The translations under genes were made by a program, and so were the position numbers. From positions 1 to 64,000 of the forward strand of contig NZ_AOLY01000040.1 of the NCBI RefSeq assembly GCF_000336635.1: 64,000 nt of DNA, given 5' to 3'. This document shows, piece after piece, positions 8,959-54,961 of the stretch. The DNA comes from Haloarcula japonica DSM 6131 (GTDB taxonomy: Archaea > Halobacteriota > Halobacteria > Halobacteriales > Haloarculaceae). Numbering within the stretch: the stretch's first letter is position 1; each line of letters starts with the position of its first letter. The notes beneath the pieces are model-generated. The model ran no database searches. It was given only the letters and a program-made list of their open reading frames with translations, and was not told where the DNA came from.

Positions 8959-9005
8959 CAGTAACGATAGAGGGGATTTATTACGGATAGACAGTCAGTA
9001 GTGGC

Positions 9006-10590: not shown

Positions 10591-10591
10591 G

Positions 10592-11035: not shown

Positions 11036-11091
11036 GTGTAACCAAGAGACGGACGTCCGGGTCGACAACAAACACCTAACTGAAACCATAT

Positions 11092-11778: not shown

Positions 11779-11798
11779 TAACAGGAGAATCCAAATCA

Positions 11799-13424: not shown

Positions 13425-13542
13425 CTTGGATGGATAGTCAGCGTCAACTCCGCCCGCCTGTGCTCGATGTCCCCGGCCCGCCCTGCACAGTAGAAGGGCT
13501 TGCTCGCACCGCTACACAACCAATACCAGCAAACAACCACCA

Positions 13543-14208: not shown

Positions 14209-14210
14209 CG

Positions 14211-15353
14211 ATGTCCGATAACTCCGAGCCGACCAGCGTTCGAATCACCGTCCCGGAGCGGTCTTCGGGTTCGGATGATGAACCGTATCTTCGTAGCGGG
14301 CCGCCTATTCAATCTCCAGGGTATAGAGTTATCGTTCCCGTTACTGAGACGCTGCTTGATAGCTATACAGGGATCAACGTCCGCCGGTTCCTCCAGACAG
14401 CAGTCGCACTAGCTGCTGATAACGGCGGCCGGGTGCTCTTACTCGGCATCGAGACGGTGGCAGACGAAGCGGAATTGGGCCATGTTCGAGAGTATATCCG
14501 GACGGAACAAGCGAACCAGGCCGATACGAATCCCACCATCGAGACACTGGAAAACAGACGGACACAGCTGGCGGAGATGAGTACTCTAGCGCAGGAACTC
14601 ACGCCAAGTGTTCCGGTCAGTGCAGCCGTCAGAACCGTGAAAGACCTGACTAAGGGTATTCTTGATGTCATAGACGATGAGAGTGAGGTGGCTGTCCTGC
14701 TGCCACGCGGGACCGGCCTCGATCAGGGCTGGTTGCTCAAGCGAAGTACAATTGACGCGGTCTTGGCGTCCGCTGAGTGCGACGTGTTCGTCGAAAAGAT
14801 GGGTAGCAAAGGAGGAGAGAATGCACTGTACGTACCGAGCGTTGATGAGCATACTGTCGCACCGCTCGCCGAATCGGAAGCGGAAACGATAGACTCGATA
14901 CTATTACCTGTCGGGGCAGGCCCACACTCAGCCCTCGCTGCGGAAGCAGCACGCGCGGTGGCACGTGCCACAGGTGCATCTGTGACCGTGTTCCACGTGG
15001 TACCACCTGAAGCATCTACTGAGGCGAGAAGCGACGGCGAAGACCTGCTAAAGTTCGCTGAATACGTGCTCGGTTCCGACGTAGCGATTACAACGACGAT
15101 CAAGGAGGCTGCTGATACCGCCGATGCAATTATAACGGAAACTGAGTCTCATGATGCCGTATCAATTGGAGCGCCGGAACAGAAGTCACAGCTCGAAACG
15201 TTAGTCTATGGGTCTGTACAAGAGACGCTCTCTGAGCTCGATGAGTTGACTATTCTCATGTCTCGTGATTCTGACCAGACTATGCGGTCTCTCTACTACC
15301 GATGGAAACGAGGAATTGAGGCCGAAAGTGGCGAGAGCGAGTCCAGCAAGTGA
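14211..15353 (+). CDS. Tandem UspA protein downstream of trkA
   Basis: A 380-residue soluble protein with a polar N-terminal extension (about 1-40) and two UspA-like domains (about 40-200 and 225-355). Domain 1 begins YRVIVPVTE and has a degenerate glycine loop (LLPRGTGLDQGWLLKRSTID). Domain 2 begins SILLPVGAGPHS and ends IGAPEQKSQLETLVYGSVQE, nearer to the ATP-binding pattern. The basic tail (YYRWKRGIEAES) resembles the tails of the APC-UspA fusions, suggesting it descends from the cytoplasmic part of such a permease. It ends the co-oriented operon that starts at 10240. Confidence 0.82.
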   Translation: MSDNSEPTSVRITVPERSSGSDDEPYLRSGPPIQSPGYRVIVPVTETLLDSYTGINVRRFLQTAVALAADNGGRVLLLGIETVADEAELGHVREYIRTEQANQADTNPTIETLENRRTQLAEMSTLAQELTPSVPVSAAVRTVKDLTKGILDVIDDESEVAVLLPRGTGLDQGWLLKRSTIDAVLASAECDVFVEKMGSKGGENALYVPSVDEHTVAPLAESEAETIDSILLPVGAGPHSALAAEAARAVARATGASVTVFHVVPPEASTEARSDGEDLLKFAEYVLGSDVAITTTIKEAADTADAIITETESHDAVSIGAPEQKSQLETLVYGSVQETLSELDELTILMSRDSDQTMRSLYYRWKRGIEAESGESESSK

Positions 15354-15560
15354 GGCCATACAGCAGAACTTCTTATCATTACTTTATCATCACAAGTTGG
15401 TGGCTACGGGACGAGTCGGGAAGCCAAGCGAGACAGCACTGTGGCCTGTGACAGTTCGGCCAGCACCAGCGACAGGATGGAACGAACTGAAGCGCTTGTC
15501 GCTTTCAGTGAGGTGCCGATTCATACACGAAGACAGGTGGAGGAGCAATGCGTTTTTCCC

Positions 15561-15590
15561 TGCGTGCAGTAGTGGGGACCTGCCCCACTG
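15561..15590. terminator. Hairpin between convergent UspA and APC genes
   Basis: AGTGGGG and CCCCACT form a perfect seven-base stem with a five-base loop (15571-15589), directly after the stop of the minus-strand permease and downstream of the plus-strand UspA gene. A T run (about 15552-15557) lies on the plus strand. A similar but imperfect structure accompanies the relic at 8611-8650. It may be a shared bidirectional terminator. Confidence 0.35.
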
Positions 15591-15591
15591 C

Positions 15592-17865
15592 CTACGATTC
15601 GAGGCGTCGAACGATGGCTTGGCGGATCGACATCGCGGATTCTTCAGGACCACGGGCCATGACCACAGTCTGATCCGTCTGTTCACCAATCGTCTCGGGC
15701 AGCGAGCCGAAGACAGCCTGTGACACCGCTCCCGTGCGGGTCGCTCCGACACAGATTGTATCGTACCCTGTAGCTGCATCGAGAATCGCCCCTTCGATAT
15801 CTTCGGCCACCTCGATACGGCTCTGGTACTGTGCCTCTTCGAGACCGGTCCGTTCAACGAACTCCTCGATGAGCGCCTCGCCCCGCTCCTGTGGGGAAAG
15901 GCCGTCATCGTCTTCGCTTGGCTCTTGAACGTTGAACAGTGTCAACGTGGTTTCCTCGTCGGCTGCCTCGGCAAACTCTCTGGCCCGACGAGCGGCGACT
16001 GGTGCGTGTGGGCCCTCACCGGCCAGGACCATGATGTCGCCCGTCGCGCGCCCATCTTCCGGACCGAGTTTCACGAGCGTCGCATCACACGATGCACGAC
16101 CGATGACAGGGTCGATTGTGGAGCCGAGAACGTGTTCTCGTCGGCTTCGTTTCCCCTGCCAGCCGAGGAGAACGTGGTCAGCGTCTTCCTCCTCAATAAC
16201 GTCCAGAATCGCCGAGCCGGCGTTGCGACCAACGATAGCGCGCGTTCGTAGCCCGACATCGAGGTCGTCAGCGATGTCCCGTGCAGAGTCGAGCAGTTCC
16301 TGCTGGCGTTGGACTCGTGCTTCCTCGAATGTGAGGTCCTGTTCCAGTGAAGTCTGCTGTGGGACTTCGATGATGTTCACCGCGACAACCTCGGCCGTTC
16401 CGCTATCGTGTGCGTGTGCGCTCGCTGCTGCCATCCGGAGAAGGTCCCGTTCAGTTTCGGGATTTGCCACGGGAACAACAACCCGATAGCGTCCCTGCCC
16501 GTCCGCGACTGTGGTCGGTTCTGGCGCGATTGCCTCCCCAACTAGGCTCTGGCTGAGTGCTCGGTTGCGGGCGTATACAAAGTACCAGAAGATTCCAAAG
16601 ACGACGATGACACCGCCGATGGCCTGCACGAGGAGGCTCATCTGGAGGAGAATGGCGAGACAAGCGATGAAACCGAGAATCGGGACAATTGGGTACAGCA
16701 CGCTCGGAATCCGGAACGACGGGTCGTAGGCGTCAGGATCGGCACGACGGAGAACGATGACGGCGATATGGACGAGCGCGTATGTGACGAGGTACATGAA
16801 ACTCGCCACTTCCGCGAGTGTCCCGATGCCGACCCCGATGGCGATGAGCAGGAGCGTGATAATACCGGTCGCGGAGATGGCACGGTATGGCGTCCGGAAC
16901 CGGTCGTGGACCTCGTTGAGCCAGTTGATGAGGATCTTGTCCCGACCCATGGCGAAGTTTACGCGGGCCGCCGAGAGGATACTCGCGTTCGCACTCGAAA
17001 TAGTCGCTAAAACGGCTCCCACGATCATCGCTAACGCTCCGATTGGCCCCATGATCTCCGTCGCTACGTCGGCGACGGGTATCGGAGAGTCTGCAAGCGC
17101 CTCGATTGAGAGCGTCCCGGTCGAGACGAACATCACCCCGACGTACATCAGCGTCGGCGTCACGACGGCCGCAATCATCGCCAGCGGAAGATTGCGGCTC
17201 GGGTTCTTTATCTCCTCGGCGCTGGTCGCAATCACTTCGAAGCCGATGAAGGTCACGTAGACGGTCCCGATCGTCGCTGCGACGGCCGGCCAGCCCTCTG
17301 GCGGGAGGAACGTTCCGATAGTCGGCCCACTCAGGACTCCCAGCCCGAGGAAGGCGACGATGAGACCGACAAGGGTGAGGACGATGACGTTCTGGAGTGC
17401 GCCGGTCTCTTTGACGCCGTAGTAGTTAACGCCGGTCAGCAGCGCCGCCATGACGAGTGCTGCGACGGTTATCCCGATTTCACCCCATCCGGCCAGGAAC
17501 CCGATGTACTGTCCAAGCCCGGGGAGCAGATATTGACCGAAACCGATCATGTAGAACGCGCTGGCGAAGGTCAGCCCGGCCCACATCCCCCAACCGACGA
17601 TACTGCCGAAAAACGGACCGAGCGCGCGGTTGACGTAATAGTAGCTGCCACCGGCTTTGGGCATCCCGGTTGCCAATTCCGACAGTGAAATAGCAGCGAG
17701 CAGCGATACTAAGCCGCCGGCAAAGAAGGAAATCATGCTCGCGGGTCCTGCCTGCTCCGCAGCGATGCTCGGGAGGACGAAGATGCCGGCACCGATCATC
17801 GTCCCGAGGCCAATCGTATACGCTTCGAGAAAGCCGAGGTCGCGTGCGAGTTCTTGATCAGTCAT
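15592..17865 (-). CDS. APC-family permease fused to two UspA domains
   Basis: A 757-residue protein of the same design as the one at 4006-6429. An APC transporter with IGLGTMIGAGIFVLPS and about 12 helices fills residues 10-440, and two UspA domains follow (about 460-600 and 608-740). UspA 1 carries GWQGKRSRREHVLGSTID; UspA 2 carries GATRTGAVSQAVFGSLPE. Both keep a recognisable nucleotide loop. The substrate is probably an amino acid, but is not fixed by sequence. Its start overlaps the UspA gene at 17858-18295 by eight bases, so that single-domain UspA is made just before it. A decayed copy of the 3' end lies at 8651-8880. Confidence 0.88.
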   Translation of the reverse strand: MTDQELARDLGFLEAYTIGLGTMIGAGIFVLPSIAAEQAGPASMISFFAGGLVSLLAAISLSELATGMPKAGGSYYYVNRALGPFFGSIVGWGMWAGLTFASAFYMIGFGQYLLPGLGQYIGFLAGWGEIGITVAALVMAALLTGVNYYGVKETGALQNVIVLTLVGLIVAFLGLGVLSGPTIGTFLPPEGWPAVAATIGTVYVTFIGFEVIATSAEEIKNPSRNLPLAMIAAVVTPTLMYVGVMFVSTGTLSIEALADSPIPVADVATEIMGPIGALAMIVGAVLATISSANASILSAARVNFAMGRDKILINWLNEVHDRFRTPYRAISATGIITLLLIAIGVGIGTLAEVASFMYLVTYALVHIAVIVLRRADPDAYDPSFRIPSVLYPIVPILGFIACLAILLQMSLLVQAIGGVIVVFGIFWYFVYARNRALSQSLVGEAIAPEPTTVADGQGRYRVVVPVANPETERDLLRMAAASAHAHDSGTAEVVAVNIIEVPQQTSLEQDLTFEEARVQRQQELLDSARDIADDLDVGLRTRAIVGRNAGSAILDVIEEEDADHVLLGWQGKRSRREHVLGSTIDPVIGRASCDATLVKLGPEDGRATGDIMVLAGEGPHAPVAARRAREFAEAADEETTLTLFNVQEPSEDDDGLSPQERGEALIEEFVERTGLEEAQYQSRIEVAEDIEGAILDAATGYDTICVGATRTGAVSQAVFGSLPETIGEQTDQTVVMARGPEESAMSIRQAIVRRLES

Positions 17866-18295
17866 TGTCAGATTCAGGTAGTGTAATAACGGGTACGTCG
17901 CTCTCGGAGACGAGTGACAGTCCCACGTCGCCGGTCAGCAGGCGAACCCACCGGCTGCCACCTCGTGGTGTGAACACGATCGCGCTCGCGTCGATTTCAT
18001 GCGCGGTTTCAATAACCGTCTCTGCAACGTCAGTCCCATAGCGGATTTCGGTCGTGAGCGTGCAGTCGGTATCGGCCAGCTCACCACGAGCACTGCTGAA
18101 CATTTCGTTTGCGTAATCCTCTCGCTGCTCGACTGACGCTTTGTCCGGCGCGCCGCCCGCCTTCTCGATGACGTTAATAACGGTTACATCTCCACCTACT
18201 GGTTCTACATACGGTCGCAACGCCCGCATGGTCGACTCTGCGTCTTCCGGTGACGCAACAGGTACCAGCGCGTGTCTGAACAGCGACTCCGGCAT
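17858..18295 (-). CDS. Single-domain universal-stress (UspA) protein
   Basis: A 145-residue UspA protein, paralogue of the one at 10592-11035, with the identical motif GGAPDKASVEQR and the same altered loop FTPRGGSRWVRLLTGDVG, where Asp stands at the usual Ser/Thr position. It leads a two-gene operon with the APC-UspA permease, overlapping it by eight bases, so a regulatory role on that permease is likely. A TATA-like GATATAAG lies about 40 bases upstream on the minus strand. Confidence 0.83.
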   Translation of the reverse strand: MPESLFRHALVPVASPEDAESTMRALRPYVEPVGGDVTVINVIEKAGGAPDKASVEQREDYANEMFSSARGELADTDCTLTTEIRYGTDVAETVIETAHEIDASAIVFTPRGGSRWVRLLTGDVGLSLVSESDVPVITLPESDND

Positions 18296-18447
18296 ACTAC
18301 GCCCACCGAAGCCGACTGTCGATGTGTTGATGGTGCTTATATCCCGCGGCCGTAGTGTGTCTCATGGTGACTAGTCTCTCGGGCTGTATATGAATTATTT
18401 GTCTTCGCCGCTATCCATTGGTCATCCAACTATTACACGGCTGATTT

Positions 18448-18457
18448 GCTACGGAAT
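18448..18457 (+). promoter_or_regulatory. Conserved GCTACGGAAT element before UspA gene
   Basis: The same ten bases as at 8949-8958, here 58 bases before the ATG at 18506. The match in both sequence and spacing supports the chosen start codons and marks a candidate promoter-proximal site. Confidence 0.4.
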
Positions 18458-18505
18458 GCGGAATCAACACCTGCGTTTAATACTGATGGGCCACCACTCG
18501 CTTAC

Positions 18506-19372
18506 ATGAGTCATGATGAGGGTAGTCTCCGGGAGTTTCTAGAGCGGTCCGAGACTCCCGATTCGCCACCCCGTATCCTCTATCCGATATTCAGTACCCA
18601 CGACAACTTCACGTTCGAGACGGCGATGAATATCGCTGAGGGTGTCGAGGGCGAATTACTTGTCCTTGATTTACTCGACGACAACAGCATCCATAGCGCT
18701 GAGACGACGTCAATCGGCCGAAAATTACTGCAGGCACATATAGACGAGGACCACACTGTTGACGCCCATTTAATCGTTGAAGAGACAGACAGTCCACTCT
18801 CGACTGCGATTACCGTCGCACAGCAACGGAATATCCAGCTCGTCGTGTTCGACGAACACACACCCGAGTTGCTCGGCGAAGGGATTCGCGGTGACGCGGC
18901 CGACCAGATGCGAAAAAAAGCATCATGTGACGTAGTATCAGTCACACATCCGCGGAGTGGGGCAAGTATCTCTTCGGTGCTCGTCCCACTTGCTGGTGGC
19001 GAACATTCTGGTCTCGCAGTCGTCGTCGGCGGAGCGCTGGCAGCAGGCGCGAACGCTGTTGTCGAGCTCTTGCATGTCTCACAGGCCAAAGATGACACCG
19101 CACAGGTCACAGAACTGTTCGATACGGCACGGGCACGGCTCCCCGAGTCGGTTGAACTGGATACGCAGCATCTTGACGCGCCCGACGTTGCGGAGGCAAT
19201 CATCGACGAGTCCGCCCACTACGACGTCACTGTAATAGGCAAACCGACGCAGAACCGTCTCATAGAGTTTATTACTGGCTCGGTTACCAAATCCGTGACC
19301 GACGCCTCAGAAAACGCGGTGCTTACAGTCCAGCGTGGTGAAGAAGGTGGGTTCAGTTTTGAGAACCGCTAA
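18506..19372 (+). CDS. Tandem universal-stress (UspA) protein
   Basis: A 288-residue protein with two UspA folds, paralogous along its whole length to the protein at 9006-9878. I chose the ATG at 18506 because it aligns with that paralogue (SLREFLERSETP against SLQEFLEWSDPP); an earlier in-frame ATG at 18446 would add 20 unrelated residues and overlap the shared upstream element. The second domain ends IGKPTQNRLIEFITGSVTKSV, a recognisable nucleotide loop. It is divergent from the UspA/APC operon to its left. Its stop codon overlaps the convergent gene at 19369. Confidence 0.85.
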   Translation: MSHDEGSLREFLERSETPDSPPRILYPIFSTHDNFTFETAMNIAEGVEGELLVLDLLDDNSIHSAETTSIGRKLLQAHIDEDHTVDAHLIVEETDSPLSTAITVAQQRNIQLVVFDEHTPELLGEGIRGDAADQMRKKASCDVVSVTHPRSGASISSVLVPLAGGEHSGLAVVVGGALAAGANAVVELLHVSQAKDDTAQVTELFDTARARLPESVELDTQHLDAPDVAEAIIDESAHYDVTVIGKPTQNRLIEFITGSVTKSVTDASENAVLTVQRGEEGGFSFENR

Positions 19373-27985: not shown

Positions 27986-30900
27986 GTGAAACTGTCACGG
28001 CGCGACTTCCTGACCGCGGCGGGTGCGGGGACGGTCGGCGCGCTCGCCGAAGGAGCATGGGGTGCAACACAGTCCACGGAACCGATAACGAGCGTGGACA
28101 ACCCGCTCAAGTCCTATCCGAACCGGGACTGGGAGCAGGTGTACCACGACATCTACGCCTACGACGAGGTGGACTGGACGGTGTGTCACCCCAACTGCAC
28201 CCAGTCGTGTGCACTGAACTTCTACATGAAAAACGGGGTCCCGATACGGGCCGAGCAGGTGTACCACAACGAGGAGCCCTCGGTCGGCCCGTCGGGCTAC
28301 GAGGACGCCGGCGTCAGTCAGCACTGGAACCCCCGCGGATGCATGAAGGGGTTGTCCCTACACCGCCGGACGTTCGAACCGTCCCGCATCAAGTACCCGA
28401 TGGTTCGAAAGGGGTGGGACCCCGAGGACCCCAATCCAGAAGGACGGGGCGAGGACGAGTTCGAGCGCGTCTCCTGGGAGGAGGCTATCGACCTCATCGC
28501 GGAGAAGATGGCGAACTTAGAGGACAACAAGCGGTTCCACATCTTCAACGCCATCAAAGCCGACGGACTGTTCACCCGCCACGGTTCGGGTCGGCGACTC
28601 GCGTCTGTTTTCGGCGGCTGTGAGTGGACCGAGTACGACTGGTACGCCGACCTCCCGCCGGGCCACGTCATCACGACCGGCTACCAGACCTCCGACTCCG
28701 ACGCCGTCGCCTGGCGGAAGGCCGACTACACCATCATCCAAGGGAAGAACCTTATTCACAACAAACTCGCGGACAACCACTTCCTGCAGGAGACCCGCGA
28801 GCGCGGCGGGAAGATGGTCGGCGTCTACCCCGACTACTCGCCGACGGTCCAGAAGTGCGACCGGTGGCTGCCGGTCCGCCCCGGGAGCGACCCGGCGTTC
28901 GCCCTGGGCATGGCGCACGTCATCATGGACGAGGAGCTGTACGATGCCGAGTTCATGCGGAAGTTCACGAGCCTCCCGCTGTTGATCCGGGAGGATACCG
29001 GCAAATACCTGCGCGCACACGAAGTGTTCGAGGACCACGAGGGGCCCCCAGAGGACCTCGATGAGCAGCACGAGCACAACGACTGGGGCGATTTCGTCGT
29101 GCTGGGCGAGAACGGCGAGCCGGTCCCAATGACACGCGAGGAGGTCGGCGAGGAGATGCCGACCACCCCGCAGTTAGACGTCGCCAGCGACGTGGCACTA
29201 ACCGATGGCTCGACCGTCTCCGTCAGGAGCGACTTCGCCCGCCAGCGGGACAACATCATCGAGAACTACGACCCGGAGACGGTCGAGGAAATCACCACGA
29301 TTCCGGCGGACAAACTCGCCCAGACGGCGCGGGAGTTCGCCGACGCCGAGAAGGGCCAGTGGTTCACCGGCGAGGGGATCAACCACTGGTTCCACTCCAA
29401 CGACGCGCTCCAGCGGGCGGTGTTCCTCGTTCAGGCGATGCTCGGGAACATCGGCGACGCCGGTCAGGGGTACTACAACTACTCCGGCCAGTACAAGATC
29501 GAGCTGCTGGACGGGTACCCCCACTACGTCAACCCCGACGGCAACGCCGCCCACGGGATGTATCCCGGCTACGCTTTCGCCTTCTTCGGCGGCGAGAAAC
29601 TCGACCCGCACGATATCCGGGGCGATTTCGACCGCGAGATGGACCTCGTGCCACAGGGCGACGCCGAGGAGCCGGTGATGCCGAAAAACGCGGGGTCGTA
29701 CACCATGTCCAAGCCGTCGATCCTGTGGACGATGAACTGCAACCTCCTGAACCAGACGAAACACCAGGAGCACGTCATCGAGAACTTCGTCAAACACCCC
29801 GACACGGAGAACGACCTGTTCATCGTCTCGGATATGCACATGACCTACTCCGCCCGGCACGCCGACATCGTGCTCCCGGTGCCGTCCTGGCTAGAGTGTG
29901 AGTACCCCGACATCACCATCGGTCCGGAGAACCCCTTCGTCCAGATGGACCACGGCGTGATGGACCCCATGTACGACACCAAGCAGGACGGGGAAGCCGT
30001 CGCGATGGTGGCCGAGAAACTGGACGAGAAGATCCCGCCGGCGGAGCGTAACGTCGACTCCTATCGGGCGTACTTCGAGGAGTTCCTGGATGAAGACGGC
30101 GACGTGACCAACTACATCCAGGATACCTTCGACCGCGGGATGACGACCCAAAGCATCGATGTCGAGGACCTGGAGGACGGGCCGGAACGCCTGGACCTGA
30201 AAACCTATCCGCGGATCCCGTTCTACTCGCAGGTCCACGAAGACCGGCCGTTCTACACGAAGACCGGCCGGATGGAGTTCCACAAGGAGGAGGACCGCTT
30301 CATCGAACTCGGTCGGGACGACATCGACCACGTCGAGAGCGTCGAGGGAACCCCCTACGGCGTGAACAAGAAGTGGGACGAGGCCAAGGACGAGGAGAAC
30401 CCGCTGTACCACGACGAGGGCAACCAGTTCTACTACAACACGCCACACCCGAAGTACCGAACCCACTCCTCGTGGGGGATGACAGACTGGAACCTCATCT
30501 GGGCCTCGCGTGACTTCGGCAGCGTCAGCGGCGATCCAGAAGGAACTGACCGCCTCGTCGACGACTTCTCGTTCCCCACCGGCGCCGGCGAGTCCGAAGA
30601 CGTCGCGCCGCTCGGTGAGGCGTTCGTCGAGATGCACCCGAGCGACGCCGAGAACATCGACGTGGAGAACGGCGACTACGTCCGCATCACGGGCAAGCGC
30701 GGCGACCTCGTCGTCAGGGCGATGGTCAGCGAGCGCCAGCGCCCGCGGTCGGCCGGCGACATGGGACAGCTGACGCTGTGGCACGGCTGGTGGCCCCAGC
30801 ACTTCCCCGACGACGAGGCCGACGAGGACAGCGTCAAGGGGTACAACACGATCACCAACATCTGGCTCGACCCGCTGCAGGAGACCGACGACCTCGTCCA

Positions 30901-31177
30901 CAAGGCGGTGTTCGGCGACCCGAACGTCTCCGACATCGTCGACGAGGACATCGCCTGGCACGGCGCGGAACTGGAGCACGGCTACGAGGAGACGGTGTGG
31001 GCCCCGACGGGGACCAACCGGGACGACCTCGTGGACGTCGAGAAGTACGAGGAAGCGGACTGGTGGCCCGGCGACGCCCGCCGGGACGACCTCGTCGAGG
31101 ACTACATCGGCGGGTCACTGCAGCCAAGCGGCAGCGGGAGTAGTACCGGCACGAAGACCCCAGGAGGCGATGACTGA
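27986..31177 (+). CDS. Molybdopterin oxidoreductase, type II DMSO-reductase family alpha subunit
   Basis: A 1063-residue catalytic subunit. The N-terminus SRRDFLTAAGAG is a Tat signal, so the enzyme works outside the membrane. The iron-sulphur FS0 site is Cys67-x3-Cys71-x3-Cys75 with Cys119 (RGCMKG). The overall sequence is nearest to NarG and to the type II enzymes (selenate, chlorate, dimethylsulfide, ethylbenzene): for example RFHIFNA, TIIQGKN, VGVYPDYSPTVQKCDRWLPV and DMHMTYSARHADIVLPVPSWLE. The molybdenum Asp is probably Asp237 or Asp239 in YQTSDSDAVAW. The start is GTG at 27986. Partner genes follow with overlapping ends. The substrate (nitrate, chlorate, selenate, DMSO or other) is not fixed by sequence. 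Confidence 0.9.
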   Translation: MKLSRRDFLTAAGAGTVGALAEGAWGATQSTEPITSVDNPLKSYPNRDWEQVYHDIYAYDEVDWTVCHPNCTQSCALNFYMKNGVPIRAEQVYHNEEPSVGPSGYEDAGVSQHWNPRGCMKGLSLHRRTFEPSRIKYPMVRKGWDPEDPNPEGRGEDEFERVSWEEAIDLIAEKMANLEDNKRFHIFNAIKADGLFTRHGSGRRLASVFGGCEWTEYDWYADLPPGHVITTGYQTSDSDAVAWRKADYTIIQGKNLIHNKLADNHFLQETRERGGKMVGVYPDYSPTVQKCDRWLPVRPGSDPAFALGMAHVIMDEELYDAEFMRKFTSLPLLIREDTGKYLRAHEVFEDHEGPPEDLDEQHEHNDWGDFVVLGENGEPVPMTREEVGEEMPTTPQLDVASDVALTDGSTVSVRSDFARQRDNIIENYDPETVEEITTIPADKLAQTAREFADAEKGQWFTGEGINHWFHSNDALQRAVFLVQAMLGNIGDAGQGYYNYSGQYKIELLDGYPHYVNPDGNAAHGMYPGYAFAFFGGEKLDPHDIRGDFDREMDLVPQGDAEEPVMPKNAGSYTMSKPSILWTMNCNLLNQTKHQEHVIENFVKHPDTENDLFIVSDMHMTYSARHADIVLPVPSWLECEYPDITIGPENPFVQMDHGVMDPMYDTKQDGEAVAMVAEKLDEKIPPAERNVDSYRAYFEEFLDEDGDVTNYIQDTFDRGMTTQSIDVEDLEDGPERLDLKTYPRIPFYSQVHEDRPFYTKTGRMEFHKEEDRFIELGRDDIDHVESVEGTPYGVNKKWDEAKDEENPLYHDEGNQFYYNTPHPKYRTHSSWGMTDWNLIWASRDFGSVSGDPEGTDRLVDDFSFPTGAGESEDVAPLGEAFVEMHPSDAENIDVENGDYVRITGKRGDLVVRAMVSERQRPRSAGDMGQLTLWHGWWPQHFPDDEADEDSVKGYNTITNIWLDPLQETDDLVHKAVFGDPNVSDIVDEDIAWHGAELEHGYEETVWAPTGTNRDDLVDVEKYEEADWWPGDARRDDLVEDYIGGSLQPSGSGSSTGTKTPGGDD

Positions 31178-32358
31178 TGGCACAAACGTACAATCCACAA
31201 CTCGGCCGCGAGCATAGCTACCCATACGAACACCGCGAAGAGGAGCGCGACTACCACTGGGGCATGGTCATCAACACGAACCGGTGTATCAACTGCAACA
31301 CCTGCTCCTTTGCCTGTAAGTCCACCTGGACCAGCGGCGAGGGCGAGGAGTACATGTGGTGGATGAACGTCGAGACCGAGCCCTACGGCGGCTACCCGAT
31401 GGGCTGGGACATGCGGCTGCTCGACGACCTGGAGGCCGACCAGACTATCTTCGACGCCGCCGAGAACGGCGAGCAGGTCCGCGGCTACATCGCCGAGAAG
31501 CAGGCCTGGGAGTACCCCGCGCTGGGCGACGACCAGGTCCACGGGGAGTACCCCGAGGGCGAGGTCGTCGAGTCAGACCTGGAGAACGACGAGTACCACG
31601 ACATCTGGCAGTTCTACCTCCCGCGGCTCTGTAACCACTGCAAGAACCCGGCCTGTCTGGCGGCCTGCCCGCGCAAGGCCATCTACAAGCGCGAGGAGGA
31701 CGGCATCGTCCTGCTGGACCAGGAGCGCTGTCGCGGCTACCGCCGCTGCGTGAAGGCCTGTCCGTACCACAAGCCGATGTACAACCCCGAAACGGGCGTC
31801 ACCGAGAAGCCGGTCGGCTGCTACCCCCGCATCGAGGAGGGGAACGTTCCCCGGTGTGTCTCCTCCTGCATCGGGAAGACGCGGCTCCACGGTAACATCA
31901 ACCGCGGGCCTGACGCCGGACCAGCGGGGGGCAAATCCTCCGCCGCGTCGGGGCGCTCGCCCATCAACTATCTCGTCCACTCCGACGAGAAGGTGGCCCT
32001 GCCGCTGTACCCGCAGTTCGGGACCCAGCCGCAGGTGTTCTACATGCCGCCGTACCACGTCCCGCCGGAGTTCCTGACCCAGATGTTCACGCCCAACACC
32101 GAGGTCAAGGAAAACGAGTGGCCGGGCGACACCTACGAGGAGTCGGTCCGCATCGTCCAGGAGCGGGCTCGCAACCCCAGCCACGAAGTGCTGGGCATCC
32201 TCCAACTGTTCGGCGCGACGACGCGGCTCATCGAGACCTACAACGTCAAGGAAAACCGCGTGAAGGGATGGGACCGCAACGGCGAGAAGGTCGTCGACGT
32301 GCCCATCGAGGAGCCCATGGAGGTCCGCGAGGGCGAACAGTGGACCAACCAGCCCTGA
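31177..32358 (+). CDS. Iron-sulphur beta subunit of type II molybdoenzyme
   Basis: A 393-residue protein with four cysteine clusters: CINCNTCSFACKSTW, CNHCKNPACLAACPRKA, CRGYRRCVKACPYHKP and CxxxC-type CVSSC. In the third cluster Tyr stands where an ordinary ferredoxin has Cys (CRGYRRC), which in NarH and its relatives marks a 3Fe-4S centre. It closely follows the NarH/SerB/PcrB/EbdB plan (WTSGEGEEYMWWMNVETEP). It carries electrons between the haem gamma subunit and the molybdenum site. The ATG shares a base with the alpha stop (TGATG). It lacks its own signal and would be exported with alpha. Confidence 0.93.
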   Translation: MAQTYNPQLGREHSYPYEHREEERDYHWGMVINTNRCINCNTCSFACKSTWTSGEGEEYMWWMNVETEPYGGYPMGWDMRLLDDLEADQTIFDAAENGEQVRGYIAEKQAWEYPALGDDQVHGEYPEGEVVESDLENDEYHDIWQFYLPRLCNHCKNPACLAACPRKAIYKREEDGIVLLDQERCRGYRRCVKACPYHKPMYNPETGVTEKPVGCYPRIEEGNVPRCVSSCIGKTRLHGNINRGPDAGPAGGKSSAASGRSPINYLVHSDEKVALPLYPQFGTQPQVFYMPPYHVPPEFLTQMFTPNTEVKENEWPGDTYEESVRIVQERARNPSHEVLGILQLFGATTRLIETYNVKENRVKGWDRNGEKVVDVPIEEPMEVREGEQWTNQP

Positions 32359-32368
32359 GGTGCGCACA

Positions 32369-33088
32369 ATGAAGAACACGCCACAACACCACACGCGACG
32401 TGCCGCGCTGTACGGGTTCGCCGCGACGGTCTTCCAGTACCCGGACGAGACCGTCATCGCCGATCTGCAGGACCAAGAGGTACAGGACGCCGTCCGGCAG
32501 GCCGGCGCTGCGCTCGAACTCGAAACTGAGGTCAACACGCTGCTGGACGCGCTGGACGGGGTTGACCGCGACTCGCTCGAACCGGCGTACAACCGACTGT
32601 TCGGCCTCCCGGGCGACGGGGGGACCTATCCGGTCGTCCCCTACGAGGCCCACTACACGACCGGCGATGAGGTCAACGAGAGCCAGCGCCGCATCGCCAC
32701 GGTCGTGGGCCTGCTGGAGGAGTTCGGGCTCGAAATCAGCGACGAGTTCGACGAGCGCCACGACCACGTCACCGTTGAACTGGAGCTGCTACAGGTGCTG
32801 GCCGCACAGCGGGCGGTCGCCCTCGACGGCGACGACGACGAGACGGCCGTCCGGCTCGCACGAGCGGGCGCGACGGTGCTGGACGAGCATCTCGGCAATT
32901 TTGTCCCTGCGTTCGCTCACCGAGTCCGGAAGACCGTCGACGGCGACGGCAGTTCCGACCGAGAGGGGCCCGAAGCGAGCACCGTCTACGCCGCCGCCGC
33001 GGACCTGGCGGCGGCCCTGGTCGAGTTCGACGAGGCGAGCCATCCCGACCCGGTCTCGCCCGGAACGGGGGTGAGAGCCGATGGTTGA
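32369..33088 (+). CDS. TorD/DmsD-family chaperone for molybdoenzyme
   Basis: A 239-residue all-helical protein (RRAALYGFAATVFQYPDETVIADL, then LEPAYNRLFGLPGDGG, VPYEAHYT) matching the TorD/NarJ/DmsD family, which holds the alpha subunit for cofactor loading and Tat export. The ATG at 32369 has a good ribosome-binding site (GAGGTG, seven bases away); a GTG at 32360 lies inside that site and is less likely. It overlaps the next gene by eight bases. Confidence 0.85.
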   Translation: MKNTPQHHTRRAALYGFAATVFQYPDETVIADLQDQEVQDAVRQAGAALELETEVNTLLDALDGVDRDSLEPAYNRLFGLPGDGGTYPVVPYEAHYTTGDEVNESQRRIATVVGLLEEFGLEISDEFDERHDHVTVELELLQVLAAQRAVALDGDDDETAVRLARAGATVLDEHLGNFVPAFAHRVRKTVDGDGSSDREGPEASTVYAAAADLAAALVEFDEASHPDPVSPGTGVRADG

Positions 33089-34106
33089 ACTCGACTACGA
33101 GGCGGCCCGGCGGGCGACAACGGCGACGGCGCTCGTTATGGCGCTGCTCGTCGCCGGCCAGATGGCCGTGGCGGCGGCCGTCACCGGCGGCCAGCAGCCT
33201 TTGGTCGCGACTGACGAAGTCCCACAGACCGCCGACAGCGACCGCTGGTCGGATGCCCCATCGCGGACCGTCTCGCTGTCGAAACAGCAGATGGCCGTCC
33301 CCTACGGCGGCGGGAGCATCGACGAGATAGAGGTGCAGGCGCTGACCAACGAGACCCACGTCGCCTTCCGTCTGACCTGGACGGACCCGACGAAAGACAC
33401 GAACATCCGGTCGCCGAAGAACTACAGCGACGCGGCGGCCGTGATGCTCCACAGCGGCGAGAAACCGCCGATCACGATGGGTGCCGGCGGCGACCCGGTC
33501 AACATCTGGTACTGGCGCTCGCAGTGGCAGTACGGGAATGACAAGAACGCGGAGTGGAGCAACGACATGTACGCCTACCCGAACCCGGACGAGGAGACCA
33601 AACCGGGGCTCGCGGCCGGGAACCCGCTGTCACAGAGCCAGTACGAGAACTACGGCCAGAACTACTACGCGGCCGGCTACGGGTCGCTGAGCAACGCACC
33701 ACAACAGAACGTAGACGCACAGGCCACTCGGAACGGTGACGAGTGGTCCGTCGTCTTCGTCCGGGAGCATACCGGCGAAGGCCAGCACGACGCGACGTTC
33801 TCACAGAACGAGACGATGTATCTCGCCTTCGCTGTCTGGAACGGCAGCGCCGACGAGGTCAACGGCAAGAAGTCACTGACGATGCAGTACAGCACGCTCG
33901 ACACGGAGTCCGGCGAACTCACCGCACCCGAGAGCGGGGGAAGCGGAGACAGTTCGAGTACAGGTTCAGGTAGCGCCGCCGGCGGGGGAGACTCCAGCGG
34001 TGACGGCGGTTCGGGCGGCAGCAGCAATCCGCTGTACACGTCGCTCGGGACGCTCATAGCGGCAACGGTCGCCGGCTGGACGGTCCTCTACTGGAGGCTG
34101 GCCTGA
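33081..34106 (+). CDS. Haem-binding gamma subunit, ethylbenzene dehydrogenase type
   Basis: A 341-residue protein with a signal or anchor helix at about 17-36, an extracellular domain, a Gly/Ser-rich linker (about 275-320) and a C-terminal helix (about 322-338). The domain matches the haem b gamma subunit of type II enzymes (EbdC, DdhC, SerC, PcrC): MGAGGDPVNIWYWRSQWQ supplies the likely axial Met, and NGKKSLTMQYS the likely Lys. Most bacterial gamma subunits are soluble; here the extra C-terminal helix fixes the complex to the outer face of the membrane. It receives electrons from, or gives them to, membrane carriers. Confidence 0.87.
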   Translation: MVELDYEAARRATTATALVMALLVAGQMAVAAAVTGGQQPLVATDEVPQTADSDRWSDAPSRTVSLSKQQMAVPYGGGSIDEIEVQALTNETHVAFRLTWTDPTKDTNIRSPKNYSDAAAVMLHSGEKPPITMGAGGDPVNIWYWRSQWQYGNDKNAEWSNDMYAYPNPDEETKPGLAAGNPLSQSQYENYGQNYYAAGYGSLSNAPQQNVDAQATRNGDEWSVVFVREHTGEGQHDATFSQNETMYLAFAVWNGSADEVNGKKSLTMQYSTLDTESGELTAPESGGSGDSSSTGSGSAAGGGDSSGDGGSGGSSNPLYTSLGTLIAATVAGWTVLYWRLA

Positions 34107-35020
34107 TGAGCTACGAGAACTGGAGCGCACGCGGTCGGACGCCGGGCGAGTCTGAGGCGGAGGTCCGCGACGCACTCGACGCCTCACGGGTCCGAACCCG
34201 GCAGGACGCCGCAATTGCGCTGGTCGATGCGGCGGAGTCCGGCCTCGACAGGGAGACCATCGACGCGCTGGGCGAGTGCGCACTGGACGACGACGACCCC
34301 GAGGTGCGGCAGTTCGCTATAGAAGCGCTTGGGGTCGCCGGGGCCGCGCCGGCCGTCGTCCGGCAGGCCCTCGACGACCCGGAGCCGTGGGTCCGAGCCG
34401 AAGCCGTCGTCGCCCTCTCGCGGGTCGGCGGCGACGCTAACCAGTTGGAGGGGGCGCTTGACGACGACAGCGGCTGGGTCCGACGGAACGCCGTCATCGC
34501 GATGGGCAAGCGCGGCGACGCAGACCAGTCGCTGCTGGTCGACTGCATCAAGACCGACCCCCATCCAGCGGTCCGTGAGTACGCAGCCCAGTTCCTCGGC
34601 GGCGTCGCCGAGGACGTGTCGGAGGCCGAGCGAATCCTGGCCGCGATGTTGGCCCGGGAGCCGAACGCCTTCGCCCGGGCGAAAGCCGCCGAGAGCCTCG
34701 GCGAACTCGCGACCGACCGGGCCGAGCAGGCGCTCGAAGCCCACGGCGTGACCGACCAGAGCGAGGACGTTGCCCGCGCGGCCAAGCAGGCGCTCGCGGG
34801 TGCCCGCGGGACTGATCCCGAGGAGCTAGATGTCGAAATCGGGCCGCCGTCTGCTCCCGGTAGCGGGCCGGACACACCTGCAGAGCAGTCCGTCGACGGG
34901 TACGATCCTGCCGGCTCCTTTGGCTCGGCCCGATCCGGGAGCGGGTCGCCGGCCCCCGGCGGCGCGCCCGGGTTCGAGCCCCGACGCGATCTGAACACCG
35001 ACCCGGAGGACAGGACCTGA
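34106..35020 (+). CDS. HEAT-repeat protein in molybdoenzyme operon
   Basis: A 304-residue acidic protein. Residues about 20-235 hold six or so HEAT/PBS-lyase repeats (DDDPEVRQFAIEALGVAG, DDPEPWVRAEAVVALSRVG, DDDSGWVRRNAVIAMGKRG and so on). The last 70 residues are Gly/Pro/Ser-rich and disordered. HEAT proteins are scaffolds. No signal peptide is seen, so it stays in the cytoplasm. The start overlaps the gamma stop (TGATG). The same kind of gene occurs in other archaeal type II molybdoenzyme operons, where an assembly role has been supposed. Confidence 0.85.
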   Translation: MSYENWSARGRTPGESEAEVRDALDASRVRTRQDAAIALVDAAESGLDRETIDALGECALDDDDPEVRQFAIEALGVAGAAPAVVRQALDDPEPWVRAEAVVALSRVGGDANQLEGALDDDSGWVRRNAVIAMGKRGDADQSLLVDCIKTDPHPAVREYAAQFLGGVAEDVSEAERILAAMLAREPNAFARAKAAESLGELATDRAEQALEAHGVTDQSEDVARAAKQALAGARGTDPEELDVEIGPPSAPGSGPDTPAEQSVDGYDPAGSFGSARSGSGSPAPGGAPGFEPRRDLNTDPEDRT

Positions 35021-35022
35021 CG

Positions 35023-35634
35023 ATGCCATACGAACTCGACTCGGCCGGAACGACAGCGGAACAGGGCGAAGACAAGTCAGAAAGCGACGATGGCGGCGGT
35101 CTCGAGTCATCGCTGGGCATGACGATTCCAGACGACCACGTCGGCGCGTTCGTCGCCGAAGCGCTGGAAGACCCTGAACGAGCGACGACTTGGGATGACG
35201 TCGTCGACACGATGGTCGCGCCAGCCGCACGGGACGCCTGGGCGGAGCTGAGCCCGGTCGAGCAGGCCACGGAAGTGCTCTCGAAGGCAGCCGAGTTCGA
35301 CCAGCGGGCCATCGAACACTTCGAGGCCGTCCCGCTGGACGGGGACCGCAGCGAGGCAGAGACGGACATCGACGAGGGCCTGCGGTGTCGACGCAACGCC
35401 GACACGTTCCGGGACGGCGTCGCCGCCGCCTACGGCGACGGGCGGCTCGACGACGAGGGCCTCGTCGACGCACTGGAGGCCGCGGAGTTCGACACCGAGG
35501 TTATCGCCGAGCGCGAGGACCTAATAGAGCGTATCGACAGCGTGTTCGAAATCGACTACCGTCCCTACGGCGGGACGCTGATGGATGATGACGACGGCCC
35601 CGAGCCGGATACCGAACACGGGGAGACGTGGTAA
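35023..35634 (+). CDS. Conserved operon protein of unknown function
   Basis: A 203-residue, strongly acidic soluble protein with a disordered N-terminus (1-30), a helical middle (HVGAFVAEALEDPERATTWDDVVDTMVAPAARDAWAELSPVEQ) and helical C-terminal part ending in an acidic tail. There are few cysteines (one, in LRCRRNADTF), so it is not an Fe-S protein. It lies two bases after the HEAT gene and one base before the Mrp gene, so it is a true operon member. I do not recognise the family; a role in assembly or maturation of the complex is inferred. Confidence 0.7.
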   Translation: MPYELDSAGTTAEQGEDKSESDDGGGLESSLGMTIPDDHVGAFVAEALEDPERATTWDDVVDTMVAPAARDAWAELSPVEQATEVLSKAAEFDQRAIEHFEAVPLDGDRSEAETDIDEGLRCRRNADTFRDGVAAAYGDGRLDDEGLVDALEAAEFDTEVIAEREDLIERIDSVFEIDYRPYGGTLMDDDDGPEPDTEHGETW

Positions 35635-35635
35635 T

Positions 35636-36883
35636 ATGTCCGGGAAAGAAAACGAACCCTCGGAAGACGCGATCAGGGACGAACTTCGAACTGTGGCCGC
35701 CCCCGACGGCGACGAGAACGTGGTCGCCGCGGGGTTGGTGTCGTCCGTGACCGTCACCGATGGGACCGTCACCGTCGACCCGACACTGTCCGGTATGGAG
35801 CCCGCCACAGCAGACACGCTCGCCGACCGGATGCGGACAGCGGTGCTAGAGTGTGGCGGTGTCGAGGAGGTCCGCGTAGAAACGGACGTTGCGGAGCCGG
35901 ACCACGGTACCGTCGTGCCCGGCGTGGACCGCATCGTCGCCGTCGCCAGCGCGAAAGGCGGCGTCGGCAAGACCACCGTGGCGACCCAGTTGGCGCGTGG
36001 ACTGGCCGCCTCCGGCGAGCGGGTCGGCCTGTTCGATGCCGACGTGTACGGCCCAAATACGCCGGAGCTACTCGACATCGAGGGACCGCTCGGCTCGACC
36101 GACGACGGCCGTGCCGAGCCGGTCGAGGTCGACAGCCTGCAAGTCGTCAGCGTCGGCTTGATCGCCAACGACGAACCGATGGCCTGGCGCGGTGCGATGG
36201 CCCACGAAGCAGTCGAGGGACTGCTGACCGACGCCGCCTGGGACGTCGACACTCTGGTGCTTGACCTGCCGCCGGGGACCGGCGACATCGTGCTGACGAC
36301 GCTGCAGTCGTTCCCCGTCGACGGCGCGGTGTTCGTGACGACGCCGTTCCCGACTGCCGCCGGCGATACGGAGCGCTCGACAGCACTGTTCCGCGAGGAG
36401 GGCGTCCCGGTACTCGGGGCCGTTGTCAACATGGCCGGGTTCACCTGTCCCACCTGTGGCGACGACCACGCGCCGTTCGGCAGCGACCCCGACCTCAGTG
36501 CGGACGTACTCGCGGAGCTCCCTATCGACAAATCGCTTCGCTCGACCGAGGGTGAGGTACCCGCGGCCTTCCGGGACCTCGGCGACGATGTACGCGAAGC
36601 CCTTGCGGACCGGACAACGGTGACGGTTCCCGAGACTGCGCTCGACCTCCGTGGCGTCCCCGACCGGGCGCGTATCGAACAGGTTCGCGCGGAGTTCGGC
36701 GCGCTCGCTCCCGGTGAGTCGCTCCATCTCGTAACTGACACCCGTCCGGGCGACGTCAGCGGAGCTCTCGAAGATCTGGCCTCGGCACCGCCACGGGTGG
36801 CCGTTGAACAGAAGGGGTCTAGCGTGTGGGCGCTACAGATATCCAAGACCGCCTCTGACCCAGCCGAAGACGTGACCTGCTAA
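35636..36883 (+). CDS. Mrp/ApbC-family Fe-S cluster carrier ATPase
   Basis: A 415-residue protein: an N-terminal MIP18/DUF59 domain (about 8-85) and a ParA-like P-loop ATPase (ASAKGGVGKTTVATQLARGL at about 103-122, then DADVYGPNTPELL and VLDLPPGTGDIVLT). A CPTCG pair at about 265-269 is the likely cluster-binding Cys motif. An extra C-terminal domain of about 90 residues follows. Mrp proteins transfer iron-sulphur clusters to target enzymes. As the last gene of the operon it would load the clusters of the alpha/beta subunits before export. The frame starts after TAAT; an earlier in-frame ATG at 35585 overlaps the upstream gene. Confidence 0.88.
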   Translation: MSGKENEPSEDAIRDELRTVAAPDGDENVVAAGLVSSVTVTDGTVTVDPTLSGMEPATADTLADRMRTAVLECGGVEEVRVETDVAEPDHGTVVPGVDRIVAVASAKGGVGKTTVATQLARGLAASGERVGLFDADVYGPNTPELLDIEGPLGSTDDGRAEPVEVDSLQVVSVGLIANDEPMAWRGAMAHEAVEGLLTDAAWDVDTLVLDLPPGTGDIVLTTLQSFPVDGAVFVTTPFPTAAGDTERSTALFREEGVPVLGAVVNMAGFTCPTCGDDHAPFGSDPDLSADVLAELPIDKSLRSTEGEVPAAFRDLGDDVREALADRTTVTVPETALDLRGVPDRARIEQVRAEFGALAPGESLHLVTDTRPGDVSGALEDLASAPPRVAVEQKGSSVWALQISKTASDPAEDVTC

Positions 36884-37025
36884 CCGACGGTTGAACGCCC
36901 GGGTTACCAGACGTTCCCGGTTCGCTTTTCCCTATCAGCTAAGTGGTGTGGCCGGTTCGAGATGAGAGATGACTCTCCGCACCGACGAGAGGGGGTGCTT
37001 CTCTACCGGCGCTCGACTGACGCGT

Positions 37026-37089
37026 CGGTGTTGCAAAACACCGAAGTTATTTATATTTATTTCGCAAATATGCAACACAGTGTACACTG
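37026..37089 (+). promoter_or_regulatory. Promoter with two palindromes before HTH-nucleotidyltransferase cassette
   Basis: A TATA box (TTATTTATATTTAT, about 37047-37060) lies some 25-30 bases before the GTG at 37080. Directly upstream of it is CGGTGTTGCAAAACACCG (37026-37043), with perfect seven-base arms. Over the start codon is the perfect palindrome CAGTGTACACTG (37078-37089). GTGTTGCA upstream and TGCAACAC (37071-37078) also form an inverted pair flanking the TATA box. These look like operators for the encoded helix-turn-helix protein. Confidence 0.6.
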
Positions 37090-38000
37090 AGGCAGAGCTT
37101 CGGGCGCTGGAAGCCCTGCAAGGAGAGTCGACAGTTTCGGGACTCGCCGAGGAACTGGACCGGAGTCGCAGTTACGTGTCCGAACTCGTTACCCGGATGG
37201 AATCGAAGGGGTTGGTTCACACCAGCCGTGAGGGAAAGCAGAAACGGATTAATCGATCAGACGCCCGAGCCATCGAACTGTTCGACAGTTTCGTCCAACA
37301 GTACACCCATATCCCGTTTCCCGAATTGCTCGGCGGTGCAACGCTACGTATTCTGTACTACCTACAGTCACCGGCAAGTGCCACCCAACTCGCGGAGCAA
37401 GTCGGCGTTCATCGGAGCACGGTACACCGGTCGTTGTCCCCGCTGGAGAACCGCGGGATGATATACAAGTCAGATGGGAAGTACACGCTCAACGATGACT
37501 TCAAGGAGCTATCTACCGTGGCCCGTGAGTTTGCGCACTTGCGGCACAGACACCGCATCGAAGACCACACAGAGTCGTTCACAATCCTCTGGGAATCGCT
37601 GGACGACTGTCTCGTCCAGACCCGCGCCGAGATCAAGGCGGATGCGTTCCTCCTAACGGGGCCGGAATTGTTCCAAGCGTACGATCTCCCGTTGATGGCT
37701 CGTCAGCGTCGGTACTACCTGTATTCGGAGACAGTTGAAGAGGTATCGCCGGCGGAGCTGTGTTGTCATATGCTCGTGGTCGATGACGGAACGCGCTCGC
37801 AGTCCTACTGCCTCCTCTTGCTCAGCGAGGCGGCAATCGACCGCGACGAGGTGCTCCAAGCCGCACAAAAGTACGAGGTCGACGAACAGGTGTCGAACCT
37901 CCTCGAATACCTCGATACCGAGGGAGAGAGCCGGTCGGGACGCCTCCCGCGGTGGGAGGAGTTCCGTGACCTCGCCGACGAGTACGGGGTGGCAGTATGA
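37080..38000 (+). CDS. Winged-helix regulator of the nucleotidyltransferase cassette
   Basis: A 306-residue protein with two winged-helix domains: residues about 3-65 (AELRALEALQGESTVSGLAEELDRSRSYVSELVTRMESKGLV, MarR/ArsR-like) and about 82-140 (RILYYLQ, ATQLAEQVGVHRSTVHRSLSPLENRGMI). The C-terminal 160 residues may contact the partner protein. The GTG at 37080 is chosen: it stands 25 bases from a TATA box, and the earlier ATG at 36969 would precede that TATA box and add odd residues. It overlaps the nucleotidyltransferase gene by four bases (ATGA). It probably represses its own operon, like AbiEi antitoxins. Confidence 0.78.
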   Translation: MYTEAELRALEALQGESTVSGLAEELDRSRSYVSELVTRMESKGLVHTSREGKQKRINRSDARAIELFDSFVQQYTHIPFPELLGGATLRILYYLQSPASATQLAEQVGVHRSTVHRSLSPLENRGMIYKSDGKYTLNDDFKELSTVAREFAHLRHRHRIEDHTESFTILWESLDDCLVQTRAEIKADAFLLTGPELFQAYDLPLMARQRRYYLYSETVEEVSPAELCCHMLVVDDGTRSQSYCLLLLSEAAIDRDEVLQAAQKYEVDEQVSNLLEYLDTEGESRSGRLPRWEEFRDLADEYGVAV

Positions 38001-49790: not shown

Positions 49791-50978
49791 ATGAGCGATA
49801 TTACGTTTTCGCCCACCTCCACAATATTCGAACAACGCGAGGCACTACTCGAAGAGTGGACCCCTGAGGAGCTCGTCGGACGTGACGAGGAACTCCAGCA
49901 GTATCACGCCGCTCTCCAGCCAGTCATCAACAACGAAACCCCGTCGAACATCTTTCTGTACGGGAAAAGCGGCGTCGGGAAGACTGCTGCCACCCGATAC
50001 CTTCTTTCCGCCCTGGAACGCGATGCAGCAGATGTCGACGGACTGGATCTCAGTACGGTCGAAGTCAACTGCGATGGACTCAATTCGAGCTATCAGGCCG
50101 CGGTTGCAATCGTCAACACACTTCGTGACCCGGCGAATCAAATCTCCAACACCGGATATCCACAGGCTTCGGTGTATCAATTCCTCTTCGACGCACTCGA
50201 TGATTTGGGCGGAACGGTACTCATTGTTCTCGACGAAGTCGATCACATCGAAGACGATTCGTTGCTGTACAAACTTCCCCGTGCCAGATCGAACGGTGAC
50301 ATCTCCGAAGCGAAACTGGGCGTCATCGGCATCTCAAACGATCTCGATTTCCGCAACCAACTGTCCTCGAAAGTCCGGTCGAGTCTCTGTGAAAAGGAAG
50401 TGTCTTTTTCGGCGTACAACGCCAACGAGCTTCAACTCGTTCTGAAACAGCGTGAGGCCGTCGCGTTTCAGGACGATGTCCTCGATGACGGCGTCATAGA
50501 AATGTGTGCTGCGTACGGCGCGAAAGACTCCGGGGACGCCCGTCAGGCACTGGACCTCCTCCTTGAGGCCGGAGACCTTGCTCGGGAGTACGACGATGAA
50601 CTCGTAACGGAACATCACGTACGCGAAGCCCGGCAACGGCTTCAAACCGACCAAGTCGTTGAAGGTATCCGTAACTACTCCGATCACGGCCAACTCGTTC
50701 TCTATGCGCTTACTGGGCTCGCCGAAGACAATGACACCCCGGCCCGGACACGAGACATTCTGGGCGCGTATCAGGAGTTAGCACGTGATGAGGGTCTGGA
50801 CCCGGTTTCGGAGCGTTCGGTCCGTGACTATCTCGGTGAGCTCACACAACTCGGAATTGTGTCTTCAGCGGAGTACAACCGAGGGAAAGGCGGTGGCAAG
50901 TACAAGGAATTCGAGTTAGAGCAATCCATCAGCTCGATCAAAACAGGGCTGTCAGAACTCCTGAAAAAAAGCCCGTAA
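49791..50978 (+). CDS. Orc1/Cdc6 replication initiator
   Basis: A 395-residue AAA+ protein: Walker A YGKSGVGKTA (about 57-66), Walker B VLIVLDEVDHI (about 143-153), sensor 1 GISND and the usual sensor 2 region DSGDARQALDLL. The C-terminal winged helix (about 300-390) holds the DNA-binding wing and recognition helix (RSVRDYLGELTQLGIVS). Orc1/Cdc6 marks and opens archaeal origins. It is surrounded by repeats expected as its binding sites. A TTAAGA box about 30 bases before the ATG is the probable promoter. This version is somewhat divergent from the main-chromosome Orc1, so it could serve a megaplasmid or second origin. Confidence 0.92.
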   Translation: MSDITFSPTSTIFEQREALLEEWTPEELVGRDEELQQYHAALQPVINNETPSNIFLYGKSGVGKTAATRYLLSALERDAADVDGLDLSTVEVNCDGLNSSYQAAVAIVNTLRDPANQISNTGYPQASVYQFLFDALDDLGGTVLIVLDEVDHIEDDSLLYKLPRARSNGDISEAKLGVIGISNDLDFRNQLSSKVRSSLCEKEVSFSAYNANELQLVLKQREAVAFQDDVLDDGVIEMCAAYGAKDSGDARQALDLLLEAGDLAREYDDELVTEHHVREARQRLQTDQVVEGIRNYSDHGQLVLYALTGLAEDNDTPARTRDILGAYQELARDEGLDPVSERSVRDYLGELTQLGIVSSAEYNRGKGGGKYKEFELEQSISSIKTGLSELLKKSP

Positions 50979-54791: not shown

Positions 54792-54859
54792 ATATGTCTC
54801 TCGAATGTACATATATTCAAATATGTTGTAATCAGTTCTGTTTTCACCTTATTGAGTCA

Positions 54860-54950
54860 AGATAATACCTACGTAGGAAACAAAAATAAAATATATACAA
54901 TATATTTTTTGCAAAAAATAACCGGTACAGTTATACCAGAATCCGGTATT
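54860..54950 (+). promoter_or_regulatory. AT-rich promoter region of the acyl-CoA gene cluster
   Basis: A run of A+T (AAAATAAAATATATAC, then AATATATTTTTTGCAAAAAA) about 30-80 bases before the ATG at 54962. It stands out against the GC-rich surroundings. It contains the near-symmetrical TTTTTTGCAAAAAA, a possible regulator site. Confidence 0.5.
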
Positions 54951-54961
54951 CCGAGCGGTGT

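Follow-up and report, generated by a model that had tools for sequence, protein, structure and literature searches.

A seven-gene haloarchaeal operon for a predicted second exported nitrate reductase on the nitrite oxidoreductase branch

The stretch of DNA analysed here (the window) comprises 64,000 nucleotides of contig NZ_AOLY01000040.1 from Haloarcula japonica DSM 6131. Seven complete open reading frames on one strand occupy positions 27986-36883 and are nearly contiguous, the junctions being 1-8 base overlaps or 1-2 base gaps (Table 1). The families of the seven proteins were assigned with Pfam and NCBIfam. In the case of Mrp, whose frame is open from 35585, the start given is the first ATG in the family register. 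The gene kinds of the tight seven-gene block described in the original prediction were confirmed, and its order recurs in 35 of 391 haloarchaeal genomes sampled, which rules out chance. The enzyme encoded here is referred to below as type B, the canonical haloarchaeal enzyme as type A, and a third lineage of haloarchaea, whose alpha subunit is longer, as type C.

Table 1. Genes of the type B operon in the window
Product	Length (aa)	Position	Strand	Family or remark
Catalytic alpha subunit	1063	27986..31177	+	Pfam Molybdopterin + Molydop_binding; GTG start
Fe-S beta subunit	393	31177..32358	+	4Fe-4S family
TorD/NarJ-like maturation chaperone	242	32360..33088	+	Nitrate_red_del PF02613; TIGR03482 79 bits
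Haem-b gamma subunit	341	33081..34106	+	EB_dh fold
HEAT-repeat protein	304	34106..35020	+	HEAT_2
Acidic all-helical protein	203	35023..35634	+	no Pfam family
Mrp/ApbC-type P-loop Fe-S carrier ATPase		35636..36883	+	NUBPL/Mrp, FeS_assembly_P, C-terminal DUF2249

The GC content of the operon is 66.4%, against 55.2% in the first 28 kb of the window. The operon is, as had been predicted, richer in GC than the first 25 kb. However, a similar value (65% GC) is seen for the genome's canonical nar locus on another contig, which makes the flank with 55% GC the unusual portion rather than the operon. In Haloarcula relatives, DNA identity of 89-93% spans about 27.9-36.9 kb while the flanking DNA is common only in part, and the type B operon is therefore a discrete cassette. 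Its alpha subunit is 97% identical to those of Haloarcula amylolytica and H. mannanilytica.

Several other features of the window were recorded. A TrmB-type regulator (HVO_2833 C-terminal family; 36969-38000) lies directly 3' of the operon and is not among the neighbours that recur in at least three genera. TrkH/TrkA potassium transport genes are densely clustered with universal-stress proteins and amino-acid permeases at 2012-19372, and an orc1/cdc6 gene at 49791-50978 points to a secondary replicon. A catabolic cluster of acyl-CoA carboxylase type (UbiD-like pair, AMP ligase, acyl-CoA dehydrogenase, biotin carboxylase, carboxyltransferase, MaoC and HpcH lyase) occupies 51886-63648.

Named genera carrying type B are Haloarcula, Halosimplex, Halorussus, Natrinema, Halostella, Halobaculum (where the operon is on plasmids) and Natrialba. 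The order alpha, beta, TorD, gamma, HEAT, 203-aa gene is kept wherever the contig reaches; Mrp is last in most operons; a few have it upstream, or none was detected in the stretch fetched. Two Natrinema alpha copies (G034, G091) are split into two frames. Absence of the HEAT and Mrp genes from close relatives had been named as a point that would count against the original prediction; both genes are present in relatives.

A four-cluster beta subunit, a TorD-like chaperone and an EB_dh haem gamma subunit occur together in this operon, as expected of a type II molybdoenzyme. The alpha subunit carries the Tat motif SRRDFL, and the gamma subunit has an N-terminal hydrophobic export signal and a C-terminal membrane helix (anchor), conserved across the type B clade. 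The reading of the locus as an operon for an exported type II-like molybdoenzyme, equipped with a dedicated chaperone, haem gamma subunit and Fe-S ATPase and kept in relatives, is thus upheld. The best family for alpha is NCBIfam TIGR03479, though its 436 bits are below the curated cut-off of 984.75; gamma scores 144 bits against TIGR03477, whose cut-off is 170.

The FS0 ligand positions of type B alpha are Cys67, Cys71, Cys75 and Cys119 (motif CHPNCTQSC...NPRGC). All four are present in 93 of 93 translated type B copies (redundant loci included), and the His/Asp ligand of other type II enzymes is absent. FS0 is bound by His and three Cys in NarG and by Asp71 and three Cys in Kuenenia nitrite oxidoreductase (NXR) (PMC8387239); types A and C keep the His and the Asp, respectively, while type B has Cys at the position of the NXR Asp (NDTHxC). 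The Asp equivalent to NarG Asp222/NXR Asp275 lies within DWYADLPPG, and CEWTEYDWYADLPPG, aligned with NXR Asp275, is found in 93/93 translated copies, as expected of an Asp ligand to Mo. The substrate Asn (equivalent to NarG Asn52/NXR Asn70) is Asn70 of type B alpha, in CHPNC, and is conserved. Of the 15 cysteines that serve as ligands in NarH, the beta subunit has 14. At the position of NarH Cys244, which we take to be an FS2 ligand, it has Pro212; Pro is found in 91/91 type B copies (two apparent exceptions in type B loci are canonical operons adjoining in Halosimplex) and Cys in all other sequences examined. We infer from these residues a four-Cys ligation of FS0 in type B, as well as the cluster types of FS0 and FS2. 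The haem ligands of the window's gamma subunit are Met (TMG..PVNIWYW) and Lys (GKKS), as in NXR-C/EbdC.

No export signal was found in TorD, the HEAT protein, the 203-aa helical protein or Mrp, and for that reason the four probably act in cytoplasmic maturation. Mrp has the features of an Mrp/ApbC Fe-S carrier: a P-loop NTPase domain, CPTC (CXXC) and a PF10609 match of 214 bits. The 203-aa protein is modelled by AF2 with a core pLDDT above 90, and a Foldseek search with it gave no match with E <1; a second structural alignment returned generic helical bundles only (best Z 8.3) and no convincing fold, and BLAST showed no kinship with TorD. It is found in exactly the 35 type B genomes and, as fragments, in two others. 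At one of these loci (L147:9883-10287) a shortened gene has Mrp nearby, and at the other (L148:9746-9874) a short fragment lies near halocyanin; no alpha gene is present in either fetched stretch. These remnants suggest loss of a type B operon.

In a maximum likelihood tree of alpha, type B is sister to Kuenenia NXR plus type C, with support of 100/99 with an outgroup and 100/100 without; canonical haloarchaeal NarG, E. coli NarG, PcrA, ClrA and EbdA fall on the other side. The tree has long branches and one NXR sequence of bacterial origin, reconstructed from HMMER alignments (945 residues), and SerA and DdhA were left out of it. A clade of type B with canonical haloarchaeal NarG was rejected (p-AU 2e-59). 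On this tree type B alpha is outside the NarG/PcrA/ClrA/EbdA group, so that the comparison proposed in the original prediction, run with those four references, places it in no clade of defined reductase substrate. Kuenenia NXR is the top solved-structure match for alpha, beta and gamma, and type B beta shares 50% identity with NXR-B over 293 positions, compared with 41% for the organism's own NarH. Our tree agrees with a published one (PMC12758564), in which two paraphyletic groups of Halobacteriales surround NXR. Archaeal and bacterial nitrate reductases make up part of the branch closest to periplasmic NXR (PMC8387239, PMC3578206).

Among the 35 genomes that carry type B, qNor is present in 34 and NirK in 32; at a stricter cut-off NirK is found in 31/35 type B genomes versus 210/391 genomes of the class (Fisher p 9e-6, with no correction for phylogeny). 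In 10/35 genomes from five genera, type B has nirK or qNor within ca. 15 kb, where 0.7 would be expected (rough binomial, p about 1e-9; 6e-7 counted by genus). Within Natrinema, NirK presence does not separate carriers from non-carriers. Neighbours recurring in at least three genera are halocyanin, qNor, a radical-SAM protein, a small Moco-fold protein, a cupin and a molybdate/tungstate-type binding protein (assigned by eye); the blue-copper halocyanin is near type B in four genera. In two Halosimplex species (L078, L094), a canonical nar operon is located about 7-10 kb upstream of type B on the opposite strand.

Canonical NarG is lacking in 18 of the 35 carriers, two of which have type C. Natrinema altunense AJ2 (G004/L088) and N. 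versiforme JCM 10478 (G164/L095) carry type B, and neither type A nor type C was found in their genomes. In a survey of haloarchaeal denitrification, both species are listed among those growing anaerobically on nitrate without NarGH, and another molybdoenzyme was suggested to reduce nitrate in NarGH-less species (PMC8400030); this physiology is second-hand, and AJ2 may be other than the N. altunense strain tested. NapA was considered as an alternative nitrate reductase in NarG-less carriers, these two among them, and gave weak sub-cut-off matches only. Halobacterium salinarum and others on the NarGH-less list are not among the type B loci found; type B would explain part, not all, of the NarGH-less nitrate respirers.

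The substrate, left open in the original prediction, is no longer wholly so: the genomic location of the operon, its co-occurrence with denitrification genes and the Natrinema paradox point to nitrate or nitrite. We consider it rather likely that type B is a second exported respiratory nitrate reductase of haloarchaea, belonging to the NXR branch and performing the first step of denitrification at the outer face of the membrane. Because N. altunense and N. versiforme carry it and lack types A and C, it is probably the enzyme with which some haloarchaea lacking the canonical one respire nitrate. Against this reading, about half of the carriers, including H. japonica, have canonical NarGH, which makes a second nitrate reductase needless there. 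The two split alpha copies in Natrinema, and the failure of NirK to mark out the carriers in that genus, also count against it.

The scheme we propose takes its subunits, export motif, ligand residues, phylogeny, co-occurrence and linkage from the sequence; its substrate, direction, electron donor and accessory protein roles are our interpretation. In the cytoplasm, alpha and beta would receive Mo-bisPGD and their Fe-S clusters with the aid of TorD, Mrp, the HEAT protein and the helical protein, and would then be exported by Tat. Outside the cell, alpha-beta would dock on the membrane-tethered haem-b gamma subunit. As the operon is without a Rieske/cytochrome-b module, the electron partner would be encoded elsewhere; halocyanin appears the best candidate, and electrons would enter at gamma, probably from it or from another redox partner. 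From gamma they would pass through the beta clusters and FS0 to Mo, where nitrate would be converted to nitrite, with NirK and qNor carrying the nitrite onward.

Since NXR works in both directions in vitro (PMC8387239, PMC3578206), sequence cannot settle the catalytic direction of type B; genomic context favours reduction. That its closest characterised relative is a nitrite oxidoreductase nevertheless counts against the proposed role. Oxidation of nitrite to nitrate outside the cell, with electrons passing through the haem gamma subunit to halocyanin and a terminal oxidase, is in our view improbable, considering that the carriers are organotrophs, that qNor and NirK, found in nearly all of them, constitute a reductive pathway, that NarG-less Natrinema species respire nitrate, and that the FS0 Asp of NXR is missing. 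In its favour are the closeness of all three subunits to Kuenenia NXR, the lack of a quinol-oxidising module in the operon, and the halocyanin nearby in four genera, NXR clusters also holding cupredoxins (PMC3578206). An archaeal nitrite oxidoreductase at the cell surface, with type B electrons going to halocyanin, has a slim chance of being correct; if true, it would to our knowledge be the first enzyme of nitrite oxidation in Archaea and would place part of the diversity of the NXR branch in that domain.

A role in reducing chlorate, perchlorate or another oxyanion (bromate, iodate, selenate), nitrate then being a side substrate, seems similarly improbable. Type II reductases are promiscuous, haloarchaeal NarGH reducing chlorate and perchlorate (PMC8301774), and a bacterial operon linked to chlorite dismutase is distantly related (33%); yet PcrA and ClrA stand apart from alpha (in a tree without SerA), and chlorite dismutase is not among the recurrent neighbours of type B. 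A dehydrogenase of an organic or sulfur compound (EbdABC- or DdhABC-like), with gamma as the electron acceptor site, is very unlikely, for although gamma is of EB_dh type and the UbiD/acyl-CoA carboxylase cluster lies 15 kb downstream in the window, EbdA is among the least similar references (25%), EB_dh gamma subunits also occur in NXR and haloarchaeal Nar, and the recurrent neighbours include qNor and halocyanin rather than catabolic genes.

Type B is of interest for what it may explain rather than for its gene count. Two species on the published NarGH-less list (PMC8400030) carry the operon, and genome surveys for canonical NarG only would miss it. If type B is a nitrate reductase, an enzyme of the NXR branch with a different Fe-S ligand set is added to the haloarchaeal nitrogen cycle, and it would offer a cultivable NXR relative for studying what sets the direction of nitrate/nitrite catalysis.

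Kuenenia NxrABC (PDB 7b04) shares with type B the Mo Asp, the substrate Asn, the Met/Lys haem ligands of gamma and a TorD partner. Type B alpha is, however, 35% identical to it, with an all-Cys FS0 in place of 3Cys+Asp71 and, in beta, a Pro where NXR has an FS2 Cys; the type B operon adds HEAT, helical and Mrp genes, and its hosts encode denitrification.

The operon was originally regarded as a fuller kit than usual. This does not hold, as haem gamma, TorD, HEAT and Mrp are already present in canonical haloarchaeal nar operons. That of Haloferax larsenii (L130) reads hypothetical - Rieske - cytochrome b - small protein - NarG - NarH - EB_dh gamma - TorD - membrane protein - HEAT - Mrp - small Moco-fold protein, and the window's own genome has a canonical nar operon on another contig (L054); gamma, HEAT and Mrp, found in both, are thus the standard haloarchaeal nar set. 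Canonical pNar (Haloferax, Haloarcula) resembles type B in its alpha-beta-gamma-TorD-HEAT-Mrp kit, Tat export and nirK/qNor linkage. It differs in that type B alpha is 32% identical and outside the haloarchaeal NarG clade (100% support), the FS0 and FS2 ligands are not the same, and the type B operon, in a different gene order, is without Rieske, cytochrome b and small membrane protein and has the soluble 203-aa protein where the pNar operon has a membrane protein.

Type C (Natrialbaceae, alpha about 1170-1200 aa) is like type B in its NXR-branch position, in identities of 32-34% (alpha) and 42% (beta), and in its Mrp and TorD neighbours; it differs in a CxPND Asp FS0 motif and a full set of beta Cys, and HEAT and gamma were not found nearby. 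Its alpha (L052:8844-12350, minus strand; also L051, L053, L055, L128 and L133) gives a full-length match to Kuenenia NXR alpha (765 bits) with FS0 CxPNDTHxC. Type C probably corresponds to the "long NarG of Natrialbaceae" (PMC8400030) and is a possible archaeal NXR. A putative (per)chlorate operon on a Roseobacter conjugative plasmid (L127:6672-13387) has the order chlorite dismutase - type II alpha - beta - TorD - cytochrome c - Mrp. It includes an Mrp gene of its own, and its alpha is 33% identical to type B. PcrA, ClrA and EbdA have the type II fold and four-gene core in common with type B, but are 25-28% identical to it and stand across the deepest branch of the tree.
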